From the NCBI GenBank assembly GCA_947627615.1, contig CANQWS010000031.1, positions 1 through 34,561 on the forward strand: a stretch of DNA of 34,561 nucleotides, read 5' to 3'. Under the pieces are notes generated by a model, which searched no databases, had not been told where the DNA came from, and saw only the letters and a list, made by a program, of their open reading frames with translations. Source of the stretch: an uncultured Muribaculaceae bacterium. Its GTDB lineage: Bacteria > Bacteroidota > Bacteroidia > Bacteroidales > Muribaculaceae. Of this stretch, positions 4,363 to 34,430 are shown piece after piece; position 1 is the first letter of the stretch, and each line of letters begins with the position of its first letter. The translations under genes were made by a program, and so were the position numbers.

Positions 4363-7116
4363 ATGTTGAAACGTGTACTGAATCTCATACTCGTCACATT
4401 CCTGCCACTGCTTATTCTTACCGGCTGCCATGAAGACAGGACCTACCGCATAGGCGTGTCACAGTGCAGTCAGGATGACTGGCGCCAGAAAATGAACGAT
4501 GAAATAGAACGGGAAATAATGTTTCATCCGGAAGCCACGGTTGAAATCCGCTCGGCCGATGACAGCAATGAAAAACAGATAGCGGACATACGCTATTTCC
4601 TTGACAACAAGTTCGACATCATCATAGCCGCTCCCAACGAGGCCGAGGCCATAACACCTATAATAAAGGAGGCCTACGAAGGTGGCACTCCGGTGGTGAT
4701 TTTTGACCGCAACATCAACGGCAACTATTTCACGGCCAATTTCGGGGTCGACAATGCCGGCATAGGGACGGAAGCGGCCGAATATGCTGCCCATCTGCTA
4801 AAATCCGGCGGCAAGATTCTTGAAATCCGCGGACTGACAGGCTCTACCCCTGCAGCCGACCGCGCGGCCGGCTTCCGCCGCATAGCCGATACCCTCCCCG
4901 GCCTACAGATTGTGGCCGGAGCCGACGGAAAATGGAACTACGACGACGCCCTTGTCACCGCCGACTCGCTGCTCGCCGCTCACCCCGACGCCGACCTGAT
5001 CTACGCCCACAATGACCGCATGGCCATAGCGGCCGCCGAAGTGGCGCACCACCGCGGACTGTCACCTTATATAATAGGTGTCGACGCGGCCCCCTCGATA
5101 GGCATCAAAGCAGTGGCCGACGGAGTGATCGACGCCACCTTCCTTTATCCTACGGAGGGACACCGTCTCATCCGCACGGCCCTCTCGATTCTCAAGAACG
5201 AACCCTACGATTCCATCCAGATGCTCCCGGCACTGGCGGCCGTTGACAAAAGCAACGCCGAAATACTTCTGAAACAGGACGAAAGCCTCAGGGAGGAAAC
5301 GAGCCGCATGCGCACGCTGAAATCGCAGGTCGACGATTACTGGTCAAAGCACTCCGCACAGACATCGCTGCTCTACGCCGCCATTGCCATCCTGATTCTG
5401 CTTTTCGCGTTCCTGTTCATGGTGCTCCGGGCTTTCTGGCAGAGGAAACGCCATCAGAAGGCGCTGATGGAACAGAACAGCCTGCTCCAGCAGCAGCGTG
5501 ACCTGCAGAAGGAGCTGAACAGCAGGCTCGAACAGGCCACCCAGTCAAAACTGATGTTCTTCACCAACGTGTCACATGACCTGCGCACGCCCCTCACCCT
5601 GATAGCCGAGCCTATAGAGCAGCTTCTCGGGGCCGACAATCTGACTCCGCGCCAGCACGGCCTGATGAAGATAGCCAACCGCAACGTGAGCATCCTGCGC
5701 CGGCTTATCAACCAGATACTTGACTTCCGCAAATATGAGAACGGCAAGCTGGGCACCAACCTGTCGGAAACCGACCTCGCCGGCCTCATGCGCGAATGGG
5801 CCGATTCATTCCTGACCATAGCCCGCAAACGTGACATTAAGCTCACCATTGACATCGACTCGCCACAGGAAATGACCGCGGCGGTGGATGTGGAGAAGAT
5901 AGAGAGGGTGTTCTTCAATCTGATGTCAAACGCATTCAAGTACACCCCTGACAACGGCCGGATACGTTTCAGCTACCGCGCCACCGACGCCGAAATAGTC
6001 TTTTCAGTGGCCGACACCGGCGAGGGCATAAGCGAGGAGGACCTCCCGAACGTGTTCGAACGGTTCTTCCAGGTCGACAAAATACATCCGCGCGGCTCAG
6101 GCATAGGACTGTCGCTTGCCAAGGCCTTCGTGGAACTGCACGGGGGCACCGTCGGCGTGACCAGCGAACTCGGCCGGGGCTCGGAATTCAGCGTGAGGAT
6201 TCCGGTGAAGCACGTGGAGAACCACGCCGCACCGGCAACAGCGCCCACCCTGACGGACCATGCCGTGATGACCGAGCTTGACAACACGCCCTCGGAGCAG
6301 TCGGCCGCCGACAGCTCGAAACCCGTGCTGCTGATAATCGACGACAATGCCGACATCCGCAATATGGTGGGGTCGCTCATGGCCGACGATTACAACACCC
6401 TCTTCGCCACAAACGGCAGCGAGGGTCTGCGTATGGCCGCGAAACATGTACCGGACCTTGTGATATGCGACGTGATGATGCCCGTTATGGACGGGCTGGA
6501 ATGCTGCCGGCGCATAAAGGACGAGGTTTCCACCTCCCACATTCCGGTGCTGATGCTAACGGCCTGCTCCATGGACGAGCAGCGCGTACAGGGCTACGAG
6601 AGCGGCGCCGACGGATATGTTTCCAAACCGTTCAGCATCAATGTGCTCAAGGCCCGGTGCCGCAACCTCATAGAGAACCGCAAGCGCATACGCAACATCT
6701 GGAGCAACGGCCTCGACACCGTCAGGACCGACAGCGGCGACGCGGCGTCACAGACAGGCGCCGTTACTTCCTCAGCTCCGGTAGCCGACATTGACAGCGA
6801 ATTCTACCGCCGCTTCCTCTCGGCTGTCAACGAGGGCATGGCCGACCCGGACCTCAACGTGGACCGTCTCGCGGCCTCCCTGGGACTGGGACGCTCACAG
6901 TTCTACCGCAAGATAAAAGCGCTGACCAACTACTCGCCGGTGAAGCTCGTCAGACGTCTGCGCCTCAACGCCGCCCGCGACATGCTCACCACCACCGAAA
7001 AATCCATCAGCGAGATAGCCTACGCCGTAGGATTCTCGTCGCCCGCCTATTTCACCCGCTGCTATCGCGAAGCTTTCGGGCAGACACCCTCGGAACTCCG
7101 CGACAATCTGGGCTGA
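4363..7116 (+). CDS. Hybrid two-component sensor/AraC regulator with sugar-binding periplasmic domain
   Basis: A 917-residue one-protein signalling system resembling BT1754, the fructose-sensing regulator of the levan locus. In order it has an N-terminal hydrophobic segment; a periplasmic-binding-protein type I domain (about 27-310, LacI/ribose-binding like) instead of the beta-propellers of many hybrid sensors; one membrane helix (about 338-360); HisKA with phospho-acceptor H405 in SHDLRTP; HATPase with N, G1 (DTGEGI) and G2 (GSGIGLSLAKA) boxes; a receiver with phospho-acceptor D703 in CDVMMP; and a C-terminal AraC helix-turn-helix (about 815-915). It sits between the two operons it probably controls. 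The N-terminus ends in LTGC, which resembles a lipobox; whether it is cleaved is unknown. Fructose as ligand is inferred from the architecture and context. Confidence 0.93.
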   Translation: MLKRVLNLILVTFLPLLILTGCHEDRTYRIGVSQCSQDDWRQKMNDEIEREIMFHPEATVEIRSADDSNEKQIADIRYFLDNKFDIIIAAPNEAEAITPIIKEAYEGGTPVVIFDRNINGNYFTANFGVDNAGIGTEAAEYAAHLLKSGGKILEIRGLTGSTPAADRAAGFRRIADTLPGLQIVAGADGKWNYDDALVTADSLLAAHPDADLIYAHNDRMAIAAAEVAHHRGLSPYIIGVDAAPSIGIKAVADGVIDATFLYPTEGHRLIRTALSILKNEPYDSIQMLPALAAVDKSNAEILLKQDESLREETSRMRTLKSQVDDYWSKHSAQTSLLYAAIAILILLFAFLFMVLRAFWQRKRHQKALMEQNSLLQQQRDLQKELNSRLEQATQSKLMFFTNVSHDLRTPLTLIAEPIEQLLGADNLTPRQHGLMKIANRNVSILRRLINQILDFRKYENGKLGTNLSETDLAGLMREWADSFLTIARKRDIKLTIDIDSPQEMTAAVDVEKIERVFFNLMSNAFKYTPDNGRIRFSYRATDAEIVFSVADTGEGISEEDLPNVFERFFQVDKIHPRGSGIGLSLAKAFVELHGGTVGVTSELGRGSEFSVRIPVKHVENHAAPATAPTLTDHAVMTELDNTPSEQSAADSSKPVLLIIDDNADIRNMVGSLMADDYNTLFATNGSEGLRMAAKHVPDLVICDVMMPVMDGLECCRRIKDEVSTSHIPVLMLTACSMDEQRVQGYESGADGYVSKPFSINVLKARCRNLIENRKRIRNIWSNGLDTVRTDSGDAASQTGAVTSSAPVADIDSEFYRRFLSAVNEGMADPDLNVDRLAASLGLGRSQFYRKIKALTNYSPVKLVRRLRLNAARDMLTTTEKSISEIAYAVGFSSPAYFTRCYREAFGQTPSELRDNLG

Positions 7117-32320: not shown

Positions 32321-33493
32321 TCAGATGTCTTCTTCAATGGAGAATTCGTCGTTGAGCTCGTCGTCGAGACCGTCAAAGTCATCGAGCGCATCAAGAGACT
32401 GCTTCGGTTCTTCGGCCGGTTTAACGGCAGCGCGTGGAGCTTTGGGGGCGTTTTTGGAAGCCGCCTTCTCCTTCATGGCGCTCATGATTTTCTCTTCGAG
32501 TTCCTCGGCGAGTTCAGGATTGTCCTGGATTACGCGCTTGGCCGCATCGCGACCCTGAGCCAGTTTGGAACCGTCGTAGCTGAACCATGAACCGCTCTTC
32601 TGGATCACACCGTATTCCACTCCGAGGTCAATGATTTCGCCGCTACGCGAGATTCCTTCGCCGAACATAATGTCGAACTCTGCACGACGGAAAGGAGGCG
32701 CCACCTTGTTCTTCACGACCTTCACCTTGGTGTGGCGTCCGAGCACGTCGTCACCGTCCTTGATGGTGGAGCTGGAGCGGATGTCGATACGTACGGAAGC
32801 GTAGAACTTGAGGGCGTTGCCGCCGGTAGTGGTTTCGCTCGGGCCGAACATCACGCCGATTTTCTCGCGGAGCTGGTTGATGAATATGCAGGTGGTGTTT
32901 GTGCGCGAAATAGCGCCCGTGAGCTTACGCATGGCCTGTGACATGAGGCGAGCCTGCAGACCGACGTTACGCTCTCCCATATCGCCCTCTATTTCGTTTT
33001 TAGGGGTAAGCGCGGCCACGGAGTCTACCACGAGAATATCCACGGCAGCCGAGCGGATGAGCTGTTCGGCAATCTCAAGGGCCTGCTCGCCGTTGTCGGG
33101 CTGGGCTATGAGCAGGTTGTTGACATCCACACCGAGTTTCTCGGCATAGAAGCGGTCAAAGGCGTGCTCGGCATCGATCATCGCCGCGATGCCGCCCGCT
33201 TTCTGGGCCTCGGCTATGGCATGGATGGCGAGAGTTGTCTTTCCTGACGATTCTGGGCCGAAAATTTCGATGATACGGCCGCGGGGGAATCCACCCACAC
33301 CCAGAGCATAGTTGAGCGAAATGGAGCCGGTAGGGATGACTTCAACGTCCTCCACCACTTCGTCGCCCAGTTTCATGATACTTCCTTTTCCGAAGTCCCT
33401 TTCGATACGCTCGAGCGCCTGATTGAGCGCATTGAGTTTCGCAGCGCGCGGGTCAGCGGCCGCGCCTTTCTTTGTTGTTTCCTTTTTTGCCAT
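32321..33493 (-). CDS. recA: Recombinase RecA
   Basis: A 390-residue DNA strand-exchange protein that also triggers LexA-type autocleavage. It has the N-terminal oligomerisation helix ([21 protein letters not shown], about 20-40), Walker A GPESSGKT at 79-86, Walker [10 protein letters not shown] (about 151-159), and loops L1/L2 (GDMGERNVG... and [16 protein letters not shown]). A long acidic C-terminal tail ends in DEFSIEEDI, with an extra Lys/Ala/Pro-rich linker (about 340-370) that explains the length above the common 340-350. It is monocistronic, minus strand, convergent with the glycosyltransferase. I see no clear LexA box in the upstream region. Confidence 0.98.
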
Positions 33494-33535
33494 ATAATAG
33501 TTTTCTATTTATTTTTCATTTTTGATTTTACAATG

Positions 33536-33543
33536 CAAATATA
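33536..33543 (-). promoter_or_regulatory. -7 promoter box for recA
   Basis: The minus strand reads TATATTTG, an exact TAnnTTTG, 42 nt before the recA ATG. A second exact box (TATCTTTG, plus 33616-33623) lies further upstream and could be an alternative start. Neither has a well-placed TTTG at -33. Confidence 0.5.
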
Positions 33544-33739
33544 ATGCCACAGTCGGGCAATACTATTGCACACCACCGCAAATTTTCTCAAACAGAATCT
33601 CTGCGGCCTTATATGCAAAGATACGCATTGTTTCGTTAACATCATTCCGTGCCGCAAAAAAGTTGACACATGCGGAGAAAATAATTGGGCTCCTGATATA
33701 GATTCACGGCAAAAATAAGAGGTAAAAGACATGTTTGAG

Positions 33740-33892
33740 TTAACGTGTGTTAAAAGTTAACATCACACCAAACCAAAAGAGGACTAATCACGTTCTAATG
33801 TCAAATTACTTTTCAATTGCAAGAAATGTGATAATGATTGGTTTATTATCTAAACGAGGAGACGTCGTGAGACATCGCCTCGTTGCTTTTTT
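33740..33892 (+). ncRNA. Candidate structured small RNA beside recA
   Basis: About 150 nt of plus strand without a credible gene folds in consecutive elements. Hairpin A: GTGT-GTTAA (33745-33753), loop AAG, TTAAC then ACAC (33757-33768, 3-nt bulge). Stem B: AAACCAA (33770-33776) with TTGGTTT (33838-33844), enclosing ATCACGTT (33787-33794) with AATGTGAT (33825-33832, one G-U). Hairpin C: AACGAGG (33853-33859) with CCTCGTT (33878-33884), inner GACGTC/GACATC with one mismatch and a GTGA loop, then GC and a T6 run. The last is a rho-independent terminator. CATGTTTG at 33730-33737, one base off the -7 consensus, would start the RNA near hairpin A, though no -33 box is seen. It is flanked by minus-strand genes only. 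Identity is unknown; 6S RNA or an Rfam Bacteroidales motif is possible. Confidence 0.5.
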
Positions 33893-33919
33893 AGCTACAC
33901 CACAATTATCCATAAAATA

Positions 33920-33990
33920 GGATACCCGCAGCAAGAGGTATCCGCATCGAGAGGGGATGCAGCCACTCCGGACAGCATCCCCTCTTTTTA
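33920..33990 (+). terminator. Second hairpin pair with T-run downstream of the candidate RNA
   Basis: GGATACC (33920-33926) pairs with GGTATCC (33937-33943). AGAGGGGATGC (33950-33960) pairs perfectly over 11 bp with GCATCCCCTCT (33975-33985), followed by TTTTTATC on plus. The T-run orientation points to a plus-strand transcript. On minus the large stem could still end the DUF4332 mRNA (stop 37 nt away), but without a U tract. The rest of 33494-34022 outside these structures and the recA promoter shows nothing further. Confidence 0.6.
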
Positions 33991-34022
33991 TCTTCAGACT
34001 GAATATTCTTCAGACCGGGGTA

Positions 34023-34430
34023 TCAGTAGGTCACTACCGGTTCGAGCTCGCCCGCCATCTCAATCATCTTCTCGATTTCCTTTTCCGAGGGAGTACGGTT
34101 GGAGAGATTCTTGCTCTCGTTGACCTCCGCAACCTTTGCGGCGAGATTGGCGGCTTTACGGTGACGCAATTCCTTCACGGTATCCACTCCGGAAGCTTCG
34201 AGCAGTTCTGCAAACTGAGGACCAATGCCCTTGATGCGGAATAGATCGGCATGATTCACCCATTTCAGAATTAGTTTGGGAGAAATACCGGTAGCTTCGG
34301 CAATGGCCTGACGTCCCTTTGCGGTGGCTCCCTTCTCAAGAAGCTCTTCAACGGTTGTTATGCCCGCTTCAATCAGTTTCGATGCGTAGCTATCGCCCAC
34401 GCCTTCGATTTCTATAATCTTGTAACCCAT
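34023..34430 (-). CDS. DUF4332 helix-hairpin-helix protein
   Basis: A 135-residue small protein made of two helix-hairpin-helix units: IEGVGDSYASKLIEAGITTVEELL (about 8-31) and IKGIGPQFAELLEASGVDTVKELRH (about 66-90). The IxGIG/VG turns typically contact the nucleic acid backbone. This matches DUF4332, found alone or fused in many bacteria. It probably binds DNA or RNA non-specifically; its partner is unknown. Closeness to recA is suggestive only, since a 529-bp spacer separates them. No clear TAnnTTTG box is seen upstream on its strand. Confidence 0.85.
   Translation of the reverse strand: MGYKIIEIEGVGDSYASKLIEAGITTVEELLEKGATAKGRQAIAEATGISPKLILKWVNHADLFRIKGIGPQFAELLEASGVDTVKELRHRKAANLAAKVAEVNESKNLSNRTPSEKEIEKMIEMAGELEPVVTY

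Follow-up and report, generated by a model that had tools for sequence, protein, structure and literature searches.

The window analysed here, the whole 34,561-nucleotide stretch of DNA, carries recA on the minus strand (ORF at 32321-33493) and, across a spacer, a second minus-strand ORF at 34023-34430, which keeps the putative name DUF4332-like gene from an earlier sequence-only reading. That reading had noted a plus-strand fold with a T-run in the spacer between these two genes, and the sequence and the ORFs bear this out. Our comparison indicates that positions 33803-33892 of the plus strand very probably hold a genuine small RNA (sRNA) gene, divergent from recA, which the sequence-only reading rightly spotted but wrongly outlined. 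Its proposal of an undescribed sRNA upstream of recA is upheld by conservation, a promoter motif and covarying terminator stems, while the extent, the 5′ helices and the promoter that came with the proposal do not stand. The predicted RNA, about 90 nt long, is the conserved part of a 102.9-bit match to our model R1 at 33794-33892. Upstream of it, on the same strand, are a -35-like element, AAACC (33770-33774; family consensus GAAC[C/T]), and a -10-like element, CGTTCTA (33791-33797; family consensus [C/T]GTTNTA); the 5′ end of the RNA would fall about 10 nt past the GTT box. Within the RNA, block 1 (33808-33823) has diverged in the window copy, where it reads ACTTTTCAATTGCAAG against the consensus ACTTTTTCCATTGCAAG of a 42-copy alignment, and is followed by block 2 (AAATGTGATAATGATTGGTTTA, 33824-33845), the most conserved stretch, with invariant columns in that alignment (A1). 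An intrinsic terminator hairpin (33853-33884) and its T-run (33887-33892, read from the sequence), both on the plus strand, complete the predicted gene.

Folded as one piece, 33735-33895 reached -37.3 kcal/mol (z -2.42), a value equalled by 3 of 200 shuffles, in keeping with the earlier proposal of a structured region. The fold signal sits in the 3′ part: 33803-33892 gave z -2.85 (1 of 200 shuffles as good) and the terminator at 33852-33892 z -3.36 (0 of 200), with -1.51 for the open stretch at 33803-33852 (16 of 200) and -0.33 for the 67 bases of the 5′ part, 33736-33802 (68 of 200). This 5′ part is promoter DNA. Because its z is -0.33 and the signal is limited to the 3′ part, the string of helices in the sequence-only reading is not one structure. 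Indeed, the helices drawn in the 5′ part fold no better than shuffles and are also without conservation in the 170 related copies introduced below. The quoted stem arm AAACCAA occurs exactly upstream of 2 of these 170, and upstream of 35 when up to one mismatch is allowed; GTTAAC...GTTAAC precedes a single copy; and the left arm of the inner stem ATCACGTT/AATGTGAT falls in the -10 region.

A search with 33735-33900 returned good matches in 61 genomes, often more than one per genome, which covered query positions of about 69-159, corresponding to window 33803-33893. The window's own genome has a second copy, 97% identical, at C1:86999-87088. From 53 flanked copies, 42 distinct aligned copies (A1) and copies of further genera we read a common order of elements: GAAC[C/T] and [C/T]GTTNTA come first, often followed by GTACATAGCA; next come block 1 (CTTTTTCCATTGC), a linker whose length varies, and block 2 (TGTGATAATGATTGGTT(T)A); the hairpin and the T-run close the series. 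Counts were made on 170 distinct copies with block 2 at no more than one mismatch, full flanks and no N, obtained from 171 rows by removing L153, an antisense target site that the copy search had picked up; because block 2 is required at that stringency, the set is biased to close copies. With up to two mismatches, GTACATAGCA is present in 109 of the 170 and block 1 (CTTTTTCCATTG) in 136. The window copy, which is without GTACATAGCA and has a changed block 1, is therefore a diverged member. Copies of other genera retain block 2 with minor changes, and it is nearly invariant over about 20 nt. It is likely to be a seed or a protein site, and its near-invariance, longer than a short seed needs, may reflect the latter. 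A hairpin within block 2 (GATAATGA with the bases after TTGGT) can form all eight of its pairs in 96 of the 170 copies and five or fewer in 36; given those 36 copies and a fixed left arm, we do not count it as conserved structure.

Following block 2, a hairpin of at least six pairs is found in all 170 distinct copies, made by 141 distinct stems (the shuffled controls for hairpin folding cover the window copy and the second own-genome copy), and 117 copies have at least six T within 13 nt after the terminator stem. Compared in this way, the terminator stems differ in sequence yet appear to stay paired, and the plus-strand terminator of the sequence-only reading thus draws support from folding and from the family comparison alike. 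The sRNA terminator, whose stem has internal mismatches, was absent from the output of a consensus terminator scan. RNAalifold on A1 misplaced it, so the structure of model R1 is imperfect and the model works mainly on sequence. Elsewhere in the spacer, a second plus-strand hairpin (GAGGGGATGC/GCATCCCCTC) followed by TTTTT was seen by eye at 33951-33989, about 60 bases past the sRNA terminator, and the terminator scan reported a minus-strand terminator-like hairpin, GGATACC...GGTATCC, at 33920-33943, possibly the end of the DUF4332-like gene.

The upstream sequences share a promoter motif. A -35 AAC box and a -10 GTT box at fixed spacing (AAC-N17/18-GTT), as expected of an ECF-sigma-dependent sRNA, lie 15-70 bases before block 2 in 166 of the 170 distinct copies; 20 sets of shuffled upstreams averaged 6.2 and never exceeded 13. 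The GTT is most often 44 bases before block 2 (90 copies), the gap in the window copy is 18, and the motif precedes 60 of the 61 recA-linked copies; a strict promoter pattern has 3 matches in the window's own genome. ECF sigma factors in general typically use AAC and GTT boxes, and the conserved upstream element, judged by its letters, appears to be an ECF-sigma-like promoter. The near-consensus -7 box proposed earlier (CATGTTTG, 33730-33737) lies outside the conserved pattern, and no conserved TAnnTTTG was seen by eye upstream of the copies. Among known promoters, published reports describe a non-canonical promoter of Bacteroides thetaiotaomicron, PM2, whose elements lie at -10 and -30 and which has been tied to oxidative-stress genes (PMC7366714), and a TGTT at about -10 that ties PM2-like promoters to ECF sigma factors (PMC12596196). 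The family promoter is alike in form to these -10/-30, ECF-tied promoters, as compared by description only (PMC7366714, PMC12596196). Further upstream, GTTAA repeats about 10 bases apart stand at window 33739-33761, before the promoter, and in 23 of the 170 copies a GTTAA-GTTA direct repeat with similar spacing stands upstream; the repeats are a possible activator site.

At E 0.01, model R1 matched 183 of the 297 genomes of a bacterial family taken to be Muribaculaceae and 20 of its 30 genera, with 1-8 matches per genome among the matches listed. These totals include the matches in G081 (L110) and G176 (L109), which on inspection were false and leave at most 181 genomes and 19 genera. L109, L110 and, outside the 183, L119 are weak matches (E 0.0036, 0.0081 and 0.03) without the blocks; the weak matches in the bacterial family were inspected in part, L109 and L110 among those checked. 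One genome, G065, has eight matches, two of them partial. Among 393 genomes drawn from the order, searched at E 0.001 with stricter filters that may miss distant relatives, 7 matched: six belong to the bacterial family, and the sole match outside it (G350) is a lone terminator, which leaves no credible match outside the family among these genomes. At least 115 stretches were found, and the titles of 80 named loci among them read Muribaculaceae, Duncaniella, Paramuribaculum, Muribaculum and Amulumruptor and, more loosely, Bacteroidales, Porphyromonadaceae, Bacteroides and Barnesiella. Copies also lie at contig ends (for example L014, L023 and L099), which suggests that assemblies undercount them.

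In Rfam, the window gave no match at gathering, and at E up to 10 the interval 33480-34060 gave four implausible matches and a consensus copy one; five related loci gave only tRNAs at gathering. The library held 4227 models and may not include FopS, a Bacteroides family discussed below. A search for small RNAs in Muribaculaceae among open-licence PMC papers found no relevant report. The copies form a multicopy Muribaculaceae sRNA family that has no Rfam match and appears to be undescribed. For Muribaculaceae, a leading family of the mouse gut, it provides a defined RNA whose promoter class, start and end are predicted and which has kept its place beside recA.

As a full explanation we favour, and consider reasonably probable, a stress-sigma-driven, trans-acting antisense sRNA family of Muribaculaceae that acts at translation starts. 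Under this explanation, 33803-33892 would encode one member of a paralogous family of trans-acting sRNAs of about 90 nt. Transcription would start about 10 bases past the GTT box of an ECF-sigma-type promoter, GAAC[C/T]-N16/17-[C/T]GTT, and would end at the intrinsic terminator; since they share this promoter, an alternative sigma factor, probably a stress-related one, would activate the copies jointly. The two conserved blocks in the open 5′ half would then pair with the translation start regions of several mRNAs, and the pairing would impede initiation, in the manner of FopS and GibS in Bacteroides. A comparable logic is known from the sigma-E-dependent sRNAs of enterobacteria (MicA, RybB), where an envelope-stress sigma factor drives trans-acting antisense RNAs at starts; these are Hfq-dependent and not known to be related in sequence to the Muribaculaceae family.

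The pairing step was approached through complementarity to translation starts. As starts we used the first ATG of each long ORF in a sample of roughly one tenth of the genome, together with the SusC loci, a definition that adds noise. Against the -20..+20 regions of 250 own-genome starts, the core beat 20 of 20 dinucleotide shuffles of equal CAU count; at -40..0 and 0..+40, 1 and 2 of 20 shuffles were as good, and further from starts 9-13 of 20. With 60 shuffles, 1 was as good as the core at starts of the own genome (220 genes), compared with 20, 23 and 13 in the order genomes G051, G059 and G057 (146, 87 and 37 genes), of which G051 is listed without a match in the order search and the other two gave chance-level matches only in the search with 33735-33900. 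We take this complementarity as moderate support for the sRNA pairing near translation starts; the diverged 5′ end and block 1 of the window copy speak against the explanation. SusC-like genes did not stand out clearly as special targets, their 12 starts having a mean pairing z of -1.26 against -0.84 for other genes. In 34 genomes, non-self near-complements of block 2 numbered 15, while the reversed pattern gave 1; dinucleotide-shuffled block 2 patterns gave 14 and 10 sites (3 and 4 for their own reversed controls), and because of these 14 and 10 the count was dropped as target evidence. The placing of the near-complements is a trend only, 10 of 15 lying just before or over a start compared with 8 of 24 for the shuffled patterns (9 of 24 with one doubtful frame). 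As targets, individual mRNAs are weak candidates, the best being, by reading of translations, an outer-membrane protein gene (L152), a GH3-like enzyme (L153, from the window's own genome) and a transporter found in two species (L183 and L185).

That block 2 lacks enrichment of near-complements over shuffled patterns would also fit a conserved stretch that mainly binds a protein, for example an RRM protein such as RbpB, with the RNAs serving as decoys or sponges. Block 2 is nearly invariant over its roughly 20 nt across genera, beyond what pairing with varied targets needs, and RbpB is reported to bind the FopS RNAs (PMC11697453). We nevertheless regard this as unlikely, as the complementarity of the core peaks at start codons here and less so in genomes without the RNA.

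Trans-acting antisense action, our preferred explanation, has close parallels in Bacteroides. FopS comprises paralogous sRNAs of about 65-70 nt (14 copies in B. thetaiotaomicron) that have canonical sigma-ABfr promoters, target SusC genes and carry a seed termed R1/R1′; one copy was reported from a phage (PMC11697453). GibS is one sRNA with seeds R1 and R2, lying between other genes, driven by the non-canonical promoter PM2 and pairing with translation starts (PMC7366714). The present family is like FopS in being multicopy in Bacteroidales, in having an open 5′ part followed by a terminator hairpin, in its proposed action at translation starts and in having a copy in a phage. It differs in predicted length (about 90 nt), in copy number (1-8 matches listed per genome), in its AAC-N17/18-GTT promoter and in that SusC is not singled out. 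With GibS it has in common a non-canonical promoter, compared by description only, and, as proposed here, pairing with translation starts, whereas GibS is described as a single sRNA with two seeds. By this analogy the sRNA probably works like FopS and GibS. We do not file it with FopS because the promoter class differs, as described.

Descent from FopS or GibS, which would make the family their Muribaculaceae branch, could account for the multiple copies, the open 5′ part with terminator, the likely action at starts and the phage-borne copy, all as in the published account of FopS (PMC11697453), and for the non-canonical promoter, as reported of GibS (PMC7366714). This seems improbable to us: FopS RNAs are described as about 65-70 nt long with canonical sigma-ABfr promoters (PMC11697453), the 4227 Rfam models, which may not include FopS, gave no match, and R1 had no credible match outside the bacterial family among the 393 genomes of the order.

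Within any one genome, copies are alike in one part only. In 45 within-genome pairs the bodies are 97.3% identical, compared with 87.1% in 1,333 between-genome pairs, while the 90 bases upstream are 61.7% and 59.8% identical and the roughly 60 bases downstream 53.6% and 54.3%; here G025's copies and one copy from G035 were treated as coming from separate genomes, a treatment that can only weaken the contrast. Such a pattern would follow from gene conversion confined to the body or from bodies having spread recently, and since the promoter motif stands at nearly every copy, conversion among established genes is favoured. The family offers a clear example of concerted evolution of sRNA bodies with promoters that stay independent. 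A small mobile or recombining DNA repeat, rather than a gene, would also leave several dispersed copies with alike bodies within a genome, unrelated flanks and copies at contig ends, but a repeat would not be expected to carry a fixed-spacing promoter motif before 166 of 170 copies, to keep its terminators paired or to keep its place beside recA, and we hold this reading to be very unlikely.

The place beside recA is widely shared. RecA was found with a 390-aa query in 29 of 34 same-genus genomes, and in 23 of the 29 a copy lies upstream of recA, head-to-head. Among those with no linked copy, G023 and G021 have only a 3′ piece of RecA, the contig of G003 ends 307 bases upstream of recA, and G019, G029 and G009 have 900 bases upstream of recA without a copy. 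Family-wide, among the matches listed, the link is present in 30 of 59 genomes and 8 of 18 genera; the 59 are genomes with RecA and a copy both listed, so that genomes with only weak copies are under-represented. In all 30 (one of which, G036, is known from a 39-base fragment) the copy is divergent and 129-674 bases from recA, and in genus g37 the link occurs in 0 of 8 genomes. The recA link is either old or frequently retained, and dispensable for the sRNA. Other arrangements include a copy upstream of recA and in the same direction (L249) and, beside recA of Duncaniella muris DSM 103720, a tandem pair of copies separated by 183 bases (L259:7020-7224). Two strong RecA matches each were seen in 6 of 139 family genomes among the matches listed (G035, G087, G106, G124, G153 and G160), which reflects either a second recA or mixed bins.

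Such a neighbourhood, head-to-head in 23 of 29 same-genus genomes and in 30 of the 59 listed from 18 genera, could be taken to mean that the sRNA regulates recA, either in cis via the spacer they share or through pairing at the start of recA. The sequence-only reading had likewise suggested an action on the recA leader. Pairing with recA starts is, however, mostly no better than shuffles: for 61 linked sRNA-recA start pairs the median fraction of shuffles as good or better was 0.33, with 5 of the 61 at 0.05 or less and the window's own pair at 0.33. Other copies are also unlinked, entirely so in g37, and regulation of recA is accordingly a slim prospect. A 6S or other known housekeeping RNA, also raised earlier as a divergent 6S RNA, is favoured only by the stems of that reading and is practically discounted by the lack of an Rfam match in the window at gathering, by the four matches at E up to 10, none of which is to 6S, and by RNAs that are multicopy, short and without a long bulged duplex.

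Beyond the single gene, the data would tentatively fit a clade-wide stress response, a wider picture that we put forward as possible. One ECF sigma factor would fire several unlinked sRNA genes, the oldest of them beside recA; gene conversion would keep their bodies, not their promoters or flanks, alike; and the RNAs would act jointly as antisense to a translation-start sequence that many mRNAs have in common. At least one phage with a version consisting of block 2 plus terminator may enter or disturb this circuit. The phage and plasmid records searched gave no match, and viral 17-mer matches (L382-L385) were without a terminator and judged to be chance. The phage-like version was found on the IMG/VR contig UViG_3300035520_000548 (L358), which carries block 2 and its own terminator, without block 1, at about 5793-5858, along with terminase-, dUTPase- and helicase-like genes by reading of translations.
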